Origin: Candidatus Pacearchaeota archaeon
GTDB lineage: Archaea > Nanobdellota > Nanobdellia > Pacearchaeales > GW2011-AR1
Assembly (NCBI GenBank): GCA_016181885.1
Contig: JACOYJ010000005.1
Span: 1 to 38,752, forward strand
Direction of reading: 5' to 3'
DNA length: 38,752 bases
Part shown: in pieces, positions 8,969-17,257 of the stretch
How the letters are laid out: each line of letters begins with the position of its first letter
Position numbering within the stretch: the first letter of the stretch is position 1
Program-made: the position numbers and the translations under genes
The notes under the pieces: generated by a model
Told to the model about the DNA's origin: nothing
The model's input: only the letters and a program-made list of their open reading frames with translations
The model's database searches: none

Positions 8969-10132
8969 TTAAGCGCTTGTTACTTGAACATAATTTTCTA
9001 AGGTCTTTGCAGCTCTTTGTTTTCCTTCATCAACTATTCTGGCAACTTCTCTTGCATTTTCTGTTGATTCAGTTCTTAATTCATCTATCATCTTATAAGA
9101 CTCTTCTTGGAAAGTAACAATTGCGTCAACAAGCTTTTGTACAGAGCTAGCATTAATTGTAGCTCCGTATCCCGCCTTTAACGCAGCTTTTTCTAAAGTA
9201 TTTCCTAATTCAGCAATATCCTCAATTCCTTTGTTTGCTCCGGTTTTCATCGATTCAGAAGCCTGAGTTTGTTCATGCAAACCGTGTTGGGCAGTATAAA
9301 CAGCATCCATTGTAGTAAAGACATGTTCGTTTGTTGTGAAAAATGTAACAGATTGTCTGTAAACTCTTTCTTTAAGATCATGTGTTTGTTTAAGCTTTGC
9401 AACTAAAGTTTCACCAACATTATAACCGATAGTCAGATTTTCAGCTACGTCTTTAATAAGTTGGTATTTTTGCTCTTCCTGATCAAATGCTCTTTGAGAC
9501 TCATCTCTAACTAACTGCAATCTTGATTTTTCCGCATCATTATTTCCGGAGTATTTGCTTACGGCTTCTGTAGACGCTGCAAATTTTTGTTTTGCATCAT
9601 TCATTTTAGCATCCTGAGCCTTAAGAACTTCATAAGATAATATCTCAGCCTCTTTAATGGCAAATCTAAAGTCCATATATGAATCCATGATAGTATTCTC
9701 TCTTTTAAGCTGTTCATGAGTTCTTTCAGTAACGCCAGAATAAACTTCCTTTATTTTCTCAAATCTATCATGAGTAGTCCCCTTTGTTAATCTCATCCAG
9801 AAATTTGACGCACTTTCTCTCCAATCAATTTTTCCATCACCAAGCTGTTCTACAAGTTTTCTTGAATCATCTCTAATAGAGTTAAATAGTTTTGTTATCT
9901 TTTGATAATCTTGAGAAACATCCATTTGTTCAATGTTATCTCTAACCAGCTCGTTAAATGTTCCTTGGTATTGAACAACTCTTGCTATAGCAGTTACTCT
10001 TGGTTGATCAATGTCAACAACTTCTTGCAGTAAAGTAGCTAGTTGGGATTCCTCGCCTTTTCTTTCTGTAAGTCCGAATCTATCCAGAACCGATGTTGCG
10101 CTATCAAGATATTTCTGCAATCCTGTTGACAT
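8969..10132 (-). CDS. long coiled-coil protein, possibly TelA-like
   Basis: 387 residues, almost entirely heptad-like helix with no membrane segment or signal. The last 100 residues (ANKGIEDIAELGNTLEKAA, then repeated Glu/Arg/Lys heptads to the end) are reminiscent of the C-terminal part of TelA/KlaA-type tellurite-resistance-associated proteins, but the resemblance is by eye and not strong. It is divergently transcribed from the DUF6384-like and Gly-rich-tail genes from a shared 98-base promoter region, so the three probably form one module. A TATA box (ATTTATAAA on the - strand, about 10155-10163) lies 27 bases before the ATG. Confidence 0.6.
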   Translation of the reverse strand: MSTGLQKYLDSATSVLDRFGLTERKGEESQLATLLQEVVDIDQPRVTAIARVVQYQGTFNELVRDNIEQMDVSQDYQKITKLFNSIRDDSRKLVEQLGDGKIDWRESASNFWMRLTKGTTHDRFEKIKEVYSGVTERTHEQLKRENTIMDSYMDFRFAIKEAEILSYEVLKAQDAKMNDAKQKFAASTEAVSKYSGNNDAEKSRLQLVRDESQRAFDQEEQKYQLIKDVAENLTIGYNVGETLVAKLKQTHDLKERVYRQSVTFFTTNEHVFTTMDAVYTAQHGLHEQTQASESMKTGANKGIEDIAELGNTLEKAALKAGYGATINASSVQKLVDAIVTFQEESYKMIDELRTESTENAREVARIVDEGKQRAAKTLENYVQVTSA

Positions 10133-10154
10133 GAGATATTTTTATTTTATCTTC

Positions 10155-10208
10155 TTTATAAATGTTTCTATGATTAAATTATATAGTGGTGACACAAAAT
10201 ATTTATAA
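10155..10208. promoter_or_regulatory. divergent TATA boxes of the coiled-coil module
   Basis: TTTATAAAT at 10155-10163 serves the - strand gene and ATTTATAAATA near 10199-10208 the + strand gene; each is centred 27-28 bases before its ATG. The two boxes share the core ATTTATAAA(T), so the two arms may respond together. No clear operator palindrome is visible between them. Confidence 0.55.
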
Positions 10209-10230
10209 ATAGTCCTTAGATTTAATAAAA

Positions 10231-11781
10231 ATGGTAGGATCACCTAAAGAATCAGATAATTCCCAGAAAGAACTTGGGGAATTTATGAGCATGATGGACG
10301 TTGTTGATATAGAAAGACGGCAAGATCAAGCTGTTCAAGAGCAATTAACTATTGACGAAAGAAAATTAGCGATAAAAACCCAATTAAGAAAAACCTATGA
10401 AGAAATGGGAGTTAACGCTACCGATTCTCAATTAGATTCCGCTATTGAAGATCATTATTCAAAGAAATGGAGTTTTACATCTTCAGCTGGAGGATTGGGC
10501 GCTAAGCTAGTTAATATGTATATAAACAGGGGGTGGATTGCAAAAAAGATTATTCTCCCGACGCTGGTAGCAGCAGGTTTTATTGCTGGGGTTTATGGCG
10601 GAGTAAAAGCAATACAGCATAGCGCTGAAGTTCGAAGGGAACAAGCTGTTGAAGTGAGAATTGAACAAGCTTATAATACATCAAAAGAATTGGAAAGAAA
10701 GATAGCAGAAACTTCTTCTTCACATTTTATAACTCAATTACCTCAAAATGAAAAAAATACTTTAGAAGATAAAACTTTAAGCGCAAGAAGAAAATTAGAT
10801 TATACAAGACCTTTCTTTACAGAATTCTCAATTGATGGTCAGGCAGATAAACTTGTTACATTGGATAATTATGCACAAGCTGATGAAAAACTTAAGTCTA
10901 CTATGCCTATTCTCGAGGATGCTGAAGTTGATGTAAATTCTGCAAAAGGCATAATTCAAAGACAGGAGCAATTTGTTTTAACAGATAATGGATTGGAAAA
11001 CTTAATGGCCCAAGTTGAAACATGCAATTCTCCAAAACCTCTTAAAGAAAAAGCTACATCTGCTTATGAGGCTGGAAAATCCAGTATAGCAAATAGGGAA
11101 CTTGATGCAGCTAGGGGGGCACAAACAAATTTAATCACTATTTTAAATGATTGCAATGATTTTGGAAATTTGAAGCAAGAGTTTTCTAAGTTATATAATT
11201 CTGCTATAAATGCTGCAGTTGAGAGATTGGCTATTGACGAAACTGAAGATTTAAATGAAAGAGCTAAAAGCTATGTGCAAGTTGCAGATGTAGGTAGTTT
11301 AAGAAAAGCTGTTTCTGAGATTGGAGAGATTAATACAACACTAATACAAGAGTATGTTATTGAAGTTGTTAATCGATCTGGGATAAGAAGTGGACTATGG
11401 AGAAGAAGTAATGACAACCCCCCAAGAAATAGTGACGACACAGATTCCCAAGGTAAAAGATTTTATTTAGTTTGTCAAGCGGTTGAAAAAGACGGAGATG
11501 TTGTATCATTAAAACTTAAGAACATAGAAGATCAAAGAGTTGAAAGTGTTTCTATGTTTGGTGTTGGAGTGCCTCATGAGGTTTATCTAAGAATTAAAGC
11601 AGATAAAATAGACAATTGGTTAGTTGACAATAGCTCAACAAAACTTGAAAATAGACATTTCTCTAAAAAGCAAAAAGGATATATTCACACAGAACAAATA
11701 ATGACTGACAATAGCGGAAAGCCACTTGGAGACATGGGGTTTTTAACAAGGGAAGAAAATAATTGGAGGAAGCCCAGATAA
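10231..11781 (+). CDS. DUF6384-like membrane protein
   Basis: 516 residues. The N-terminal 100 residues follow the pattern I recall for bacterial DUF6384 proteins: MSMMDVVDIERRQD, a long acidic helix, QLRKTYEEMGVNATDSQLD, then GLGAKLVNMYINRGW just before a single membrane helix at about 106-126. A helical middle domain follows, then a C-terminal beta domain (FYLVCQAVEKDGDVVSLKL; VGVPHEVYLRIKADK) that also matches this family in my memory. The function of DUF6384 is unknown to me. The stop shares one base with the next start (TAATG), implying coupling. Topology predicts a short inside part and a larger part on the other side, or the reverse. Confidence 0.65.
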   Translation: MVGSPKESDNSQKELGEFMSMMDVVDIERRQDQAVQEQLTIDERKLAIKTQLRKTYEEMGVNATDSQLDSAIEDHYSKKWSFTSSAGGLGAKLVNMYINRGWIAKKIILPTLVAAGFIAGVYGGVKAIQHSAEVRREQAVEVRIEQAYNTSKELERKIAETSSSHFITQLPQNEKNTLEDKTLSARRKLDYTRPFFTEFSIDGQADKLVTLDNYAQADEKLKSTMPILEDAEVDVNSAKGIIQRQEQFVLTDNGLENLMAQVETCNSPKPLKEKATSAYEAGKSSIANRELDAARGAQTNLITILNDCNDFGNLKQEFSKLYNSAINAAVERLAIDETEDLNERAKSYVQVADVGSLRKAVSEIGEINTTLIQEYVIEVVNRSGIRSGLWRRSNDNPPRNSDDTDSQGKRFYLVCQAVEKDGDVVSLKLKNIEDQRVESVSMFGVGVPHEVYLRIKADKIDNWLVDNSSTKLENRHFSKKQKGYIHTEQIMTDNSGKPLGDMGFLTREENNWRKPR

Positions 11782-13211
11782 TGGCAAGTGGAAAACAAGT
11801 TTATAATACCATAGAAGCGCATACTGATACGCTAGAAATAGAAAGTCAAACTTTTGGTGGTAAAATTACCTCTGCACAAGAACAGATTAGAGCAGATGCC
11901 ATAACACAAGAAGAACTTTATATAAAACTTGCTAAAATTTATCTTCCGGAAATGGATGCTGATGATGTTCAAAGAACTTTGAAAGAAGTAAGAGCCGATG
12001 TTCAAGGCATACTTGATAGGAAAAATCAGAGGAGAACAGAGCTAGAATATTTAATAGGTGACACAACACAAAGAAGAGCCAGTCTTAGTGTAAGATTAAA
12101 ACAAGTAACTGAAACGTTGGATGAAAAAGCTAGACAAAGAGAAGAGACACAAATAAAGATTAATGAAGAATTAAGTTTAAATCAAGATTATTTGGATATT
12201 AAAACAAACGCCGATCAAGCCCAAAAAAGGCTTGAACAAGGAGCTAAGAGGCTTGAAACATTTGAACAGGAAGCAAAAGAAAAGCTTGCTGTTTATGAAG
12301 CAAATAAGGTGTTTATGTATCTCGTGGAAACAAAATATCCTAATCGGGAAGGGAGTGTCATTAAGAGAGCTATTGATTCCTGGACCGCACAAAAAATTAA
12401 TTTTAGAGAAAACAAAAAGAATTATGATTTTTTGAAAGTAATGCCTCAAAAAATGAAAGAAGAAATCGATAGACAAAAAGTAACATTAGAAAGTTATGTT
12501 GCAGAATTAAGAGCAACTGAACAACAAGCTGCCCAAAAATACGGATTACCTGCAATAGTAGAAGAAGTTGGAATAATTACTAAAACCCGTCAGGATATGC
12601 TTCGTGGTGTGGGCGAATTAGATAAAGCTGTTGCGGGATATGCTGCAGAAAGAGATGCAATGAACGATACGAGGGGAAAATATTATGAAGAAGCTGTAGG
12701 AAGGCTAAAATCTTTCCTTACTGGAAATACAATTGATGATTTAAGAAAAAGAGCACAGCAAACTCCAGATGCAACTGATGATGGATACGTTGAGAAAATA
12801 GATGAACTGAATTATAGAATTGCCGATAGAACAAAGAGTTTAGATACCCTGAGAGCAGAAAGAAAATCTGTTGAAACAAAATTAGCTGGTTTAAGAGAAA
12901 TTGCCTATAATTTCAAAAGCAGAGATTATGAATCAAGCAGATCCACATTTAATAGTGGATTTAACATTAGTGATTTACTTCTCGGGTATATGCTTGGAAA
13001 TATGAGTTCACACGATGTAAACAGGCACATTGAGAATAATCAACATTTTAAGCCTGTAGAAACAAGTTACTCACGCAGCTATAGCCATGATTCTGGAAGC
13101 TCATATAACAGCGGTAGCAGTTCTTGGAGCCATAGTAGCGGAAGTAGCGGCTTTTCTTCGGGTGGCGGATTCGGCGGTGGCGGAGGTCATTCCACTGGCG
13201 GCGGATTTTAG
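11781..13211 (+). CDS. coiled-coil protein with Gly/Ser-rich tail ending TGGGF
   Basis: 476 residues from ATG 11781, which overlaps the upstream stop by one base; the earlier in-frame ATG at 11763 lies inside the preceding gene. Residues 1-385 are long helices with heptads (Gln/Glu/Lys/Arg rich). Then come a short hydrophobic segment (FNISDLLLGYMLGNM), a Ser/Tyr/His-rich stretch and a glycine tail finishing GGGGGHSTGGGF. Such tails occur at the end of membrane-associated bacterial proteins, for example many TPM-domain proteins, though no TPM domain is visible. It is translationally coupled to the DUF6384-like protein, so both probably act together at the membrane. It ends at a TAG followed by a terminator-like hairpin. 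Confidence 0.65.
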   Translation: MASGKQVYNTIEAHTDTLEIESQTFGGKITSAQEQIRADAITQEELYIKLAKIYLPEMDADDVQRTLKEVRADVQGILDRKNQRRTELEYLIGDTTQRRASLSVRLKQVTETLDEKARQREETQIKINEELSLNQDYLDIKTNADQAQKRLEQGAKRLETFEQEAKEKLAVYEANKVFMYLVETKYPNREGSVIKRAIDSWTAQKINFRENKKNYDFLKVMPQKMKEEIDRQKVTLESYVAELRATEQQAAQKYGLPAIVEEVGIITKTRQDMLRGVGELDKAVAGYAAERDAMNDTRGKYYEEAVGRLKSFLTGNTIDDLRKRAQQTPDATDDGYVEKIDELNYRIADRTKSLDTLRAERKSVETKLAGLREIAYNFKSRDYESSRSTFNSGFNISDLLLGYMLGNMSSHDVNRHIENNQHFKPVETSYSRSYSHDSGSSYNSGSSSWSHSSGSSGFSSGGGFGGGGGHSTGGGF

Positions 13212-13339: not shown

Positions 13340-13455
13340 AACGCTCTATAATTTTTGAAAATTATAAACCCTGGGATAGATGCCCTGAGAGCTAAAATAG
13401 TTTCCCAAAGCCTCTATCCTGGGGAAAAAGAGGTGATGAAAAACCAAAAGATAGC
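13340..13455 (+). ncRNA. candidate structured RNA with 12-pair stem
   Basis: CCCTGGGATAGA (13369-13380) can pair over all 12 positions with TCTATCCTGGGG (13413-13424), using two adjacent G-U pairs. The enclosed 32 bases fold into a second hairpin around AGCTAAAATAGTT. Upstream ATAATTTT and AAAATTAT form another stem (13347-13364). A competing pairing exists between CCTC (13411-13414 region) and GAGG near 13440. A TATA-like box (TTTAAATAAA at 13321-13330) lies a suitable distance upstream. No ORF covers it. I could not match it to a known RNA: a CTGAGA resembles the TPP riboswitch, but the rest does not fit. Strand and ends are estimates. Confidence 0.4.
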
Positions 13456-13617: not shown

Positions 13618-13658
13618 CAGTGCGTATAGTTTATAAAATCCAGCTATTTAAGATATTC

Positions 13659-14591
13659 ATGGAAGAAAATAAAGAGGCTGACACGGAAAAAGACAGCACA
13701 CCACCGATTAACGCGAAACAGGAGCAAGTTCACGATTTGATTTTCAGCAGGCAGATTGACTGGCAGGAAATTATATACGACTTGATTAATACTGAGCAAT
13801 TAGATCCGTGGGATGTAGACATTGTGATTTTAAGCGATAAATATCTTGAAAAAATACAGGTGCTGGAGGAAGCTGATTTTTTTGTCTCGAGCAAGGTTCT
13901 GCTTGCAGCTTCACTGCTTTTGAGGATAAAGTCAGAAATTCTTCTTAATAAATACATATGGAGCATTGACGAAATTCTATTCGGAGGGAAAGAGGCTAAA
14001 AAATACGAACTTGAAAGGATTGAACTCGATGAAGATATTCCTTCCCTAACGCCAAAAAGCCCAATTCCAAGATTTAGGAAAGTTACATTGCAAGAGCTTA
14101 TGGAATCTTTGAACAAGGCAATAAAGACAGAAAACAGAAGAATTTACAGGGAAATTGTCAATACAAATGCATTAAGGGAAGTCGGAATATCGCTGCCAAA
14201 GAGAAAAGTCAGCATAAAAGACAAAATAAAAGAAATTTACAATAATTTAGCCTTGCACTTCAATAAGAATGCAGACAAGAGGAAAGTTTCTTTTTCTGAG
14301 TTTGTAGGTAAGGATAAAGAAGAGAGGATAATTTCATTCGGACCTTTGCTGCATCTTGAAAACCAGAAAAAGATATGGCTCGACCAGGAAAAGCATTTTG
14401 ACGAAATTTATATATGGCTTAAAGAAGTTTATTTTGCAAATAATCCGGATCCATTTGCTGATTTAAGAGAGCAGCTTGAGGAAGAAATAGGAAATCTTGA
14501 CGCTGAAGGCAGGAAACGCCTTAAACAAGTTAACGAAGAATTTGAAAACCCATTGGCAGATTTTTTCGACGGGACGGCAAATTCCGATTAA
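13659..14591 (+). CDS. scpA: segregation and condensation protein ScpA
   Basis: 310 residues from ATG 13659. I choose it over the upstream GTG at 13620 because the TATA box TTATAAAA (13631-13638) is centred 25 bases before it. The N-terminal kleisin region (QIDWQEIIYDLINTEQLDPW, then DVDIVILSDKYLEKI) and the following LLLRIKSEILL helix are the ScpA signature. ScpA links the heads of an SMC dimer in chromosome condensation and segregation. Neither smc nor scpB is in the window, so it is genetically isolated. The charged middle is long, and the C-terminal winged-helix region seems present. Confidence 0.88.
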   Translation: MEENKEADTEKDSTPPINAKQEQVHDLIFSRQIDWQEIIYDLINTEQLDPWDVDIVILSDKYLEKIQVLEEADFFVSSKVLLAASLLLRIKSEILLNKYIWSIDEILFGGKEAKKYELERIELDEDIPSLTPKSPIPRFRKVTLQELMESLNKAIKTENRRIYREIVNTNALREVGISLPKRKVSIKDKIKEIYNNLALHFNKNADKRKVSFSEFVGKDKEERIISFGPLLHLENQKKIWLDQEKHFDEIYIWLKEVYFANNPDPFADLREQLEEEIGNLDAEGRKRLKQVNEEFENPLADFFDGTANSD

Positions 14592-14821: not shown

Positions 14822-17257
14822 ATGGCAAAGGATGAAAAGTTCATTATGATGAATCTTGACGACGACAGATCAAAGAAAGTTGCAGAAGCAATAAGCAATC
14901 CAACTTGCAAAAAGATTCTTAATTACCTTGCAGAAAACAAAGACAAATCAGAAGAAGATATTGCAAAAGACTTGGCAATGCCTATTAATACAGTTGAATA
15001 CAATTTGAAGAAGTTGCTTGAATCCGGACTTATAGAAAAATCAAAGAACTTTTTTTGGAGCAAGAGAGGCAAAAAAATAAATCTTTATAAGCCGGCAAAC
15101 AGACATATTATTATATCGCCAAAATCAAAGAGGCCAAACATGGATGTTCTTAAGACAATTCTCCCTGTAATAATTGCTTTAGTAGTTGTGGTTGCAGCAG
15201 TTTTATTGCTTTCAAACCCCCCTCAAGAGCAGACAGCTTCTAATGATTTTAAGACGTTTAGCTCACTTTCCGAACTAAAAGATTTCTTAAAAGAAAATCA
15301 AGAAGCAGGGGCATTTTATGGTGGAATAAGAGGGACAACTGCCGAAGAATTTTCTGCTTCAGATTCAGCCGCTGTTGCCGGCACTGCAGAATCAGCCGAC
15401 GCTCCCCAAACAAAATCAAGTGCAGACGACTACTCAATAACAAATATCCAAGTTGAAGGAGTAGATGAAGCAGACATAGTGAAGAATGATGGGAAATATA
15501 TTTATGTTCTTTCTGGAAAGAAGCTCGTTATAATTAACGCTTTTCCAGCAGAACAAATGGAAATACTTTCGGAGACAAATATTAGCGATTATCCTATTGA
15601 AATATTTGTAAATGGAGACAAGCTATCCGTCTTTACAAATTCGTATGGCCAATATGGCAACACGCAAGAAACAAAGTCTTTAGTTTTTGATATAACTGAC
15701 AGAGAAAATCCCATATTGGAAGATGAATTTTCAATTAATGGAAATTACCTGTCTTCAAGAATGATCGGGAATTATGTTTACTTAATTTCAAGCCAGTATG
15801 CTTACTTGGATAATGTCATCTTGCCTGCTGTAAGAGTTGATGGCATCACAAAAGAAGTCCCAATAACAGACATTGCTTATTTCCCATATCCTGATACAAG
15901 CTATGTTTTCACAAACATACTTGCTTTTAATATTAATAATGGGCGGTATGAAACCCAAACTTACCTAACAGGAGCGAGCTACACTGTTTACGTTTCGGAG
16001 AACAATATTTACTTGACTTACACAAAGCAAATGAGCCAGCAGGCTTATTTTAAGGAGATGGTTAAAGAAGTAATAATTCCTTTGGTTCCGTCTAACATCG
16101 GAGATGAAATATTAGAAATTATGACTTCAAAAGAAAATAGGCCATTTTATGAAAGGACGCAAGAAATCTCAACAATCGTTCAAGATTATTCAAATTCACT
16201 AAGAGGAGCTGAAAAATCAGAATTTGATCAAAGATTACAGGAGAAAACGCAGGAGTTTTTTGTAGACCTGCAGAAAAGATCAGAGAAAACAGTTATACAT
16301 AAAATAAAAATTGATGAGTTAGACATAGAATACCTTGCAAATGGCGAAGTTCCAGGACACTTATTAAACCAATTTTCAATGGATGAAAACAAAGATTATT
16401 TCAGAATTGCAACAACTACCGGAAATACATGGGGAAGCGCTTCCAGCTTAAGCCATATGTATGTTCTTGACGAAAACCTGGAAATAGCTGGAAGCGTTGA
16501 AGATTTAGCTAAAGGCGAGAGAATATACTCTACTAGGTTTATGGGCGATAGGGCTTATATGGTTACATTCAGGCAAGTGGATCCTTTATTTGTAGTTGAT
16601 TTATCTAATCCTTCAAGCCCAGAAGTTCTTGGACAACTAAAAGTAACAGGCTTCTCTAATTACCTGCATCCTTATGATGAAAATCACATTATAGGAATAG
16701 GAAAAGAAGCAAGTGAGGAAGGAAGAGTTCAGGGATTGAAGATTGCTTTGTTTGATGTCAGCGATGTCTCAAATCCAATTGAAAAAGCAAAATATGAAGT
16801 CAAACAGCAATGGAGCGATTCAAATGCATTATATGAACATAAAGCATTCTTATTTGACAAGAAAAGAGAATTACTAATTTTGCCTGTTACATATTCAGAA
16901 CCAAGTGAAGAAATTATCAATGAATGGGGAAGATATTGGAACTACAATTACTGGCAGGGAGCATTTGTTTTCAATATAAATGAAGATGAAATTACATTAA
17001 GAGGCAAGATAGATCATGAGGACAATGTCTCAGAGAATTACTATTACAGCTATGCAGTTCAAAGATCATTATTTATGGATGAAACTCTTTACACGATTTC
17101 ACAGAAAATGGTAAAGGCAAACGACCTTTCAAGCCTTGCCAAGATAAGCTCTGTTGAATTGCCTTATGAACAGCAATATGGTGGACCTTATTATGCTGAA
17201 TCAGGAGTTGGTGTTGTTGGAAGAGGCGTGGCTGTTCCCGAGGGAGTTGTGAAGTAA
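14822..17257 (+). CDS. membrane-tethered winged-helix protein with extracellular beta-propeller
   Basis: 811 residues in three parts. Residues about 18-75 form an ArsR-like winged helix (SNPTCKKILNYLAENKDKSE; INTVEYNLKKLLESGL). Residues about 111-131 are one membrane helix. From about 205 the sequence carries the hallmark of the C-terminal beta-propeller secreted-protein family (NIQVEGVDEADIVKNDGKYI), with blade-like repeats to the end. A helical, charged insert sits near residues 410-500 between blades. The arrangement predicts DNA binding inside and a propeller outside, which would be a one-component sensor; this is inference. It has its own leaderless-type promoter and no operon partner. 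Confidence 0.8.
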   Translation: MAKDEKFIMMNLDDDRSKKVAEAISNPTCKKILNYLAENKDKSEEDIAKDLAMPINTVEYNLKKLLESGLIEKSKNFFWSKRGKKINLYKPANRHIIISPKSKRPNMDVLKTILPVIIALVVVVAAVLLLSNPPQEQTASNDFKTFSSLSELKDFLKENQEAGAFYGGIRGTTAEEFSASDSAAVAGTAESADAPQTKSSADDYSITNIQVEGVDEADIVKNDGKYIYVLSGKKLVIINAFPAEQMEILSETNISDYPIEIFVNGDKLSVFTNSYGQYGNTQETKSLVFDITDRENPILEDEFSINGNYLSSRMIGNYVYLISSQYAYLDNVILPAVRVDGITKEVPITDIAYFPYPDTSYVFTNILAFNINNGRYETQTYLTGASYTVYVSENNIYLTYTKQMSQQAYFKEMVKEVIIPLVPSNIGDEILEIMTSKENRPFYERTQEISTIVQDYSNSLRGAEKSEFDQRLQEKTQEFFVDLQKRSEKTVIHKIKIDELDIEYLANGEVPGHLLNQFSMDENKDYFRIATTTGNTWGSASSLSHMYVLDENLEIAGSVEDLAKGERIYSTRFMGDRAYMVTFRQVDPLFVVDLSNPSSPEVLGQLKVTGFSNYLHPYDENHIIGIGKEASEEGRVQGLKIALFDVSDVSNPIEKAKYEVKQQWSDSNALYEHKAFLFDKKRELLILPVTYSEPSEEIINEWGRYWNYNYWQGAFVFNINEDEITLRGKIDHEDNVSENYYYSYAVQRSLFMDETLYTISQKMVKANDLSSLAKISSVELPYEQQYGGPYYAESGVGVVGRGVAVPEGVVK

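Follow-up and report, generated by a model that had tools for sequence, protein, structure and literature searches.

The window, that is, the whole 38,752-nt stretch of DNA that was analysed, contains three neighbouring genes, which we call A, B and C. Gene A (positions 8969–10132, minus strand) encodes an all-helical protein of 387 residues with a TelA-like predicted fold and no transmembrane segment. It runs away from gene B (10231–11781, plus strand), which encodes a DUF6384 protein of 516 residues that is predicted to be a single-pass membrane anchor. Gene C (11781–13211, plus strand) encodes a predicted coiled-coil protein of 476 residues, and its start overlaps the end of B: one base is shared by the B stop codon TAA (11779–11781) and the C start codon ATG (11781–11783), giving the string TAATG. 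A first-pass annotation of this DNA had given these positions and strands and this stop/start overlap; the former are borne out by the open reading frames and the latter is confirmed in the sequence. Among the loci compared, B and C overlap or lie no more than 50 bp apart in most. The neighbouring genes Rpb7, S27ae and ScpA establish that the genome is archaeal, and the closest relatives of B lie on contigs titled as Pacearchaeota and Woesearchaeota. The ScpA gene (13620–14591; PF02616, E 7e-16) adjoins C in the window, which is not so in the other loci read.

The region between A and B contains two TATA-like boxes with the sequence TTTATAAA, one at 10155–10162 (minus strand), 23 bp from the ATG of A, and one at 10202–10209 (plus strand), 22 bp from the ATG of B. 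Both are seen in the sequence and recur in homologous loci, although such boxes are frequent in AT-rich DNA anyway. In six more archaeal loci (L007, L008, L013, L037, L038 and L040) an A-side box and a B-side box lie 47–53 bp apart. The distance of 22–23 bp from box to start codon makes leaderless archaeal transcripts plausible for both A and B. The first-pass annotation described a shared divergent promoter with similar TATA boxes on both arms; the similar boxes stand, but the arrangement supports two putative leaderless promoters placed back to back with conserved spacing, and not one shared promoter. The conserved spacing would make joint expression of A and B-C likely.

The product of gene B matches PF19911 in two stretches with 157.2 bits (E 6.8e-46), above the curated cut-off of 25 bits, and the DUF6384 identity that had been proposed is thus secure. 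It has a single hydrophobic segment (residues 107–125; 10549–10605, plus strand), in agreement with the earlier single-pass description, which is followed by a helical stalk (about residues 126–374; 10606–11352, plus strand) and a C-terminal mixed alpha/beta domain (about residues 375–516; 11353–11778, plus strand), the best conserved part of DUF6384. The hydrophobic segment is kept in 28 of 28 B homologues and is the only strong one in the A-B-C family. An excess of lysine and arginine lies on its N-terminal side in 22 of the 28 homologues and on its C-terminal side in 3. Under the positive-inside rule, the K/R-rich flank of a membrane segment marks the cytosolic side, and on this basis the N-terminal part of B is predicted to be cytosolic, and the stalk and the alpha/beta domain to lie outside. 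The AlphaFold2 model of B (mean pLDDT 82.7) has low-confidence N-terminal helices, a long helix that crosses residues 107–125, and a confident helical stalk that leads to the alpha/beta domain. Whole B proteins range from 301 to 602 residues among the homologues, and the stalk in the window is longer than in the short bacterial forms of roughly 300 residues.

Sequence and PDB fold searches found no solved relative of B. The PDB fold search with the model gave nothing at E <0.001, and the VIA list for B contains common helical bundles only; as helices fill the list, the C-terminal alpha/beta domain is barely covered. Our literature search found no paper that mentions DUF6384. In the C-terminal domain of some members (e.g., L052, 11247–12152), a conserved DKxDNGxI stretch after a helix resembles a calcium-binding loop; the Bradyrhizobium protein has DKNDDGIV at this position, and the ligands are missing in other members, including B of the window.

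Gene A has no significant match to any family of Pfam, NCBIfam, PHROGs or PADLOC, and the Pfam TelA profile (PF05816) matches neither A nor any of 19 A homologues at E up to 5. The model of A is all helical and of moderate confidence (pLDDT 66.6; residues 281–331 are unreliable). When this model was searched with Foldseek against BFVD, the top matches that bear a name are TelA proteins, namely those of Lactobacillus phage Semele (E 3e-5, TM 0.60/0.63, rmsd 5.6 over 355 columns), Escherichia phage VEcB (E 1.8e-4) and phiPsa397 (E 1.2e-3), and two more TelA names rank lower. A global profile alignment of A with 18 TelA proteins is colinear and scores 16.1, compared with 5.2 +/- 2.9 (maximum 11.5) for 60 block shuffles and 7.1–7.5 for reversed-profile controls. 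Local hhalign scores of A against TelA are no better than those of shuffles, and the assignment of A to TelA by sequence was rejected, with Pfam, HMM cross-scoring in both directions and local hhalign all within controls. The "TelA-like" label of the first-pass annotation finds some support in the predicted fold and the global alignment, but none in sequence or the Pfam profile. A is TelA-like in its predicted fold and outside the TelA family by sequence; the likely explanation is a remote relation or a shared architecture, short of family membership. TelA proper was found in none of the 23 A-B-C host genomes scanned, so A could fill the slot of TelA in these hosts.

The fold comparison also brings up a different reading, in which A, B and C form a pore-forming or membrane-attacking system and A resembles the alpha-helical pore formers. 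The top PDB alignments of A are indeed to YaxA, XaxA, AhlB, SmhB and ClyA, with Z values of 9–11 (best 11.3), but the background for helical models reaches about 13–14, and these alignments fall below it. Neither a signal peptide nor a strong hydrophobic hairpin is evident in A, and TelA ranks higher where the library includes it (with a different program and library), and we regard a pore-forming role as very improbable. Three plasmid records label their A homologues "cell surface protein" or "merozoite surface protein 3b". These labels are probably wrong, since the proteins show neither an evident signal peptide nor an evident membrane segment; database names carried no weight as functional evidence in the analysis.

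The same four collections yield no significant family for gene C either. Its library matches are weak and many are to coiled-coil proteins (those in PADLOC at E 0.013 and above), which together with the sequence points to a coiled coil, and the searches by sequence for solved relatives of the A-B-C proteins returned only weak helical or coiled-coil matches. The protein ends in a Ser/Gly-rich tail (13062–13208, plus strand; C terminus GGGGGHSTGGGF), which closes with GGGHSTGGGF and contains the glycine-rich TGGGF end noted in the first reading. The C-terminal phenylalanine motif is common to bacterial and phage C proteins. In the form F-[SRK]-[ST]-x-[GD]-x-F, it stands at the extreme C-terminus of most C proteins, whether from archaea, bacteria, plasmids or phage (examples of the tail are STGGGF, FRTGGGF, FSTSDSF and FSSSDSF), and overall alignment identity between archaeal and bacterial C is just 22–26%. 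The exceptions are L038 and L040 (which end in FGH), L043, L044, PA83, Rhizobium and Methylorubrum. The strict DNA form of the motif has seven exact matches in 17 host genomes, all at the C gene, and a reversed control has none; this strict pattern missed 10 of the 17 genomes, including the window. A general sorting tag, considered as an explanation of the tail, was rejected for the strict form on these counts. The tail is kept in genomes that have B-C without A, which makes A unlikely as its sole partner. We infer that the tail more probably binds B, the membrane or C itself than A alone.

The distribution of the three genes was followed by running A, B and C profiles on loci retrieved via B and via C; the collections are samples, and many of the genomes are incomplete drafts. 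The genomes of at least 11 DPANN archaea have B-C with a divergent A (the window, L008, L010/L035, L011, L013, L037, L038, L040, L042, L043 and L046). At two further archaeal loci the contig end cuts off C (L007) or most of A (L044), and three archaea (L039, L041 and L045) have B-C with no A nearby. In bacteria the genes are colinear, in the order A-B-C: they were found so at seven loci from Planctomycetota, Pseudomonadota and unclassified records (L014–L020), and in four more genomes located via DUF6384 alone. Plasmids, including megaplasmids, also have A-B-C (Bradyrhizobium, P. aeruginosa PA83 and NY8709, pMPPla107 and Leaf58, and further Microvirga, Rhizobium, Methylorubrum and FeN3W). In the Yersinia jumbo phage phiR1-37, g190 is A (E 1e-122) and g191 is B (E 1e-33), while g192 is assigned to C by position and tail only, as the C profile reaches merely E 0.29; the papers on this phage that were examined do not mention g190–g192. 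Among IMG/VR contigs, three (L094, L096 and L097) have all three genes and one (L095) has A-B. Wherever the trio was read in bacteria, plasmids or phage, its order is colinear. All full-length DUF6384 genes examined adjoin C wherever the contig extends to the neighbours, and two Planctomycetota loci (L112 and L113) have an N-terminal DUF6384 fragment only, without A and C. No recurrent fourth gene was found beside A-B-C.

These data bear directly on whether A, B and C are merely unrelated neighbours. Such a reading could draw on the divergent position of archaeal A, outside the B-C operon, and on the three archaeal genomes in which A is not near B-C. It is refuted by the neighbourhoods, both by the colinear order just described and by co-occurrence: C is present in 14 of 371 genomes of the phylum (one of them marginal) and A in 10 of 343, and all 10 of the latter also have C. 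If the two were independent, the hypergeometric probability would be about 5e-17, a figure that is indicative only, as it ignores relatedness and the two samples differ slightly. A-B-C is thus a real, ancient gene set whose members are inherited together. The coupling of three genes proposed in the first-pass annotation is genuine, and the prospect it had held out, that the trio might never occur together elsewhere, is dispelled by the finds in archaea, bacteria, plasmids and a phage. It also called DUF6384 mainly bacterial. In our samples the family is scarce among archaea and bacteria alike, with 3 of 92 relatives and, counting the seed in each case, 2 of 299 Pseudomonadota and 6 of 246 Planctomycetota above the cut-off, so that "mainly bacterial" is not supported and the archaeal module is no oddity. 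In the tree of A, a single well-supported branch (100/99) separates archaeal A from bacterial and viral A, and there is on this account no sign of a recent transfer into the archaeon; long branches (L043, L008, L046 and Rhizobium) leave the inner placements unsure. A recent transfer of module genes from bacteria to archaea was considered and is not supported.

Another reading is a structural, cytoskeleton-like role in shaping or dividing the cell, in which B would be a spectrin-like membrane strut and A and C its filament partners. The B stalk aligns with the cytoplasmic domain of EzrA (Z 10.8, rmsd 5.4, 171 residues), but also with other three-helix bundles, and Z values under about 13 are ordinary for helical bundles. 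The coiled coil of C and the ScpA gene beside C in the window would suit this reading, but ScpA is no neighbour in the other loci read. Moreover, the spectrin-like part of EzrA is cytosolic, whereas the B stalk lies outside by the charge rule, and core division machinery is unlikely for so rare a module. We consider the cytoskeletal reading improbable.

The closest comparison is with the TelA (PF05816) and XpaC-TelA (YaaN) operons. As in these, the gene for a soluble, all-helical protein of about 390 residues, here with a predicted fold like that of phage TelA, has a membrane-protein gene as its partner. They differ in that A and its homologues have no Pfam TelA match and the A-B-C genomes lack TelA proper, in that the membrane partner is a DUF6384 protein, and in that a third gene, C, is always beside B. 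An hhalign comparison of B with XpaC-like proteins brought out no clear relation, with a local score of 25.7 over 34 columns (P 0.017, uncorrected for several comparisons) and no global match; the comparison set consists of eight TelA-adjacent proteins picked for their position and on visual inspection rather than through a Pfam match. At six loci from several Pseudomonadota (L060–L065), a repeated gene order consists of a two-helix membrane protein (XpaC-like by eye), TelA and a possible lipoprotein, and in some of these an SPFH-like protein is also part of the order. The DUF6384 family, of which B is a clear member, omits by itself the two constant partners A and C. Phage shock (PspA-type) systems offer a broad parallel, a coiled-coil protein that works at the inner face of the membrane, but a Pfam search of the three proteins detects neither PspA nor Toastrack. 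Ter systems share a TelA-like component, occurrence in jumbo phages and a nearby StiP gene on two megaplasmids, but of 23 A-B-C hosts just one has TerD, and none has a TerF-like vWA domain above the cut-off. The StiP-PELOTA protease gene lies near A-B-C on two Pseudomonas megaplasmids (L054, 8597–9664; L057, 6522–7592), with domains PF11202 and PF15608 in L054, StiP being a Ter-associated protease. In both, a peptidyl-tRNA hydrolase-like gene lies between the StiP gene and A-B-C, and a dCTP deaminase gene follows C in L054, L057 and L107.

By analogy with the XpaC-TelA pair, in which a membrane partner is combined with a soluble TelA, we tentatively favour a sub-membrane scaffold that protects the envelope under stress, a reading whose chances we put a little short of even. 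The membrane-linked scaffold or stress role suggested in the first-pass annotation is plausible on this same analogy. In Lactococcus lactis, the CesSR cell-envelope response raises llmg_1115 10.3-fold and telA1 3.4-fold (xpaC and telA; PMC3139573), and a telA-type mutant of Listeria shows raised sensitivity to nisin and tellurite, according to work cited in PMC12791056. In the Ter system, TelA has been assigned to sub-membrane structures (PMC7824862). No EcfG stress promoter was found upstream of A in two alphaproteobacterial loci, those of Bradyrhizobium and Methylorubrum. In the proposed scheme, A-B-C would work as one ancient functional unit. B, a single-pass membrane protein, would keep a small helical N-terminal domain (about 105 residues) in the cytosol, and its helical stalk of variable length would hold the alpha/beta domain outside the cell. 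The soluble proteins A and C, both without an export signal, would gather on the inner face of the membrane, docked to B, with C bringing its sticky, Phe-ended Gly/Ser tail to the assembly. The docked proteins would form a sub-membrane lattice, and the unit might sense or resist envelope damage. A fuller version, namely a three-protein membrane-protection system that predates or crosses the divide between archaea and bacteria, has been captured by megaplasmids and a jumbo phage, and assembles A and C on the DUF6384 anchor via an F-x-[ST]-x-[GD]-x-F docking tag, is possible, with the balance of probability against it.

The mobile-element loci suggest instead an anti-invader module, acting at the membrane in superinfection or plasmid exclusion, in cells and mobile elements alike. 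The patchy distribution (C in the 14 phylum genomes noted above) fits such a role, as do the megaplasmid, phiR1-37 and four IMG/VR occurrences, and jumbo phages have been proposed to use Ter/TelA for excluding rivals (PMC7824862). Against this, A and B go unmatched in PADLOC and C gets only the weak coiled-coil matches there, the archaeal and bacterial loci that were read showed no defence-island neighbours, and the tree bears no sign of recent exchange between the domains. In view of the XpaC-TelA and Ter literature and the lack of TelA in the scanned hosts, we rate the anti-invader role as unlikely and retain the envelope-protection scaffold as the preferred reading; the two roles could hold together.

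With these assignments DUF6384, an orphan domain without a function, becomes part of a defined three-component system with two fixed partners, one of them TelA-like, and the probably wrong record names can be replaced. The trio is within reach of tractable hosts (Methylorubrum and Bradyrhizobium), and the DPANN archaea, a group about whose envelopes very little has been learnt, gain a candidate envelope-protection system.

Two further features lie downstream of C in the window. A strong RNA hairpin (CCCTGGGATAG...CTATCCTGGGG; 13369–13424) follows an AT-rich, TATA-like stretch; its fold z-score is -2.87, it has no Rfam match, and it is possibly a small RNA or a terminator. The product of the gene at 14822–17257 has a winged helix-turn-helix at its N terminus, which a hydrophobic segment separates from a large beta-propeller domain of secreted type (PF09826, E 5e-161); from these parts it looks like a membrane-tethered regulator.
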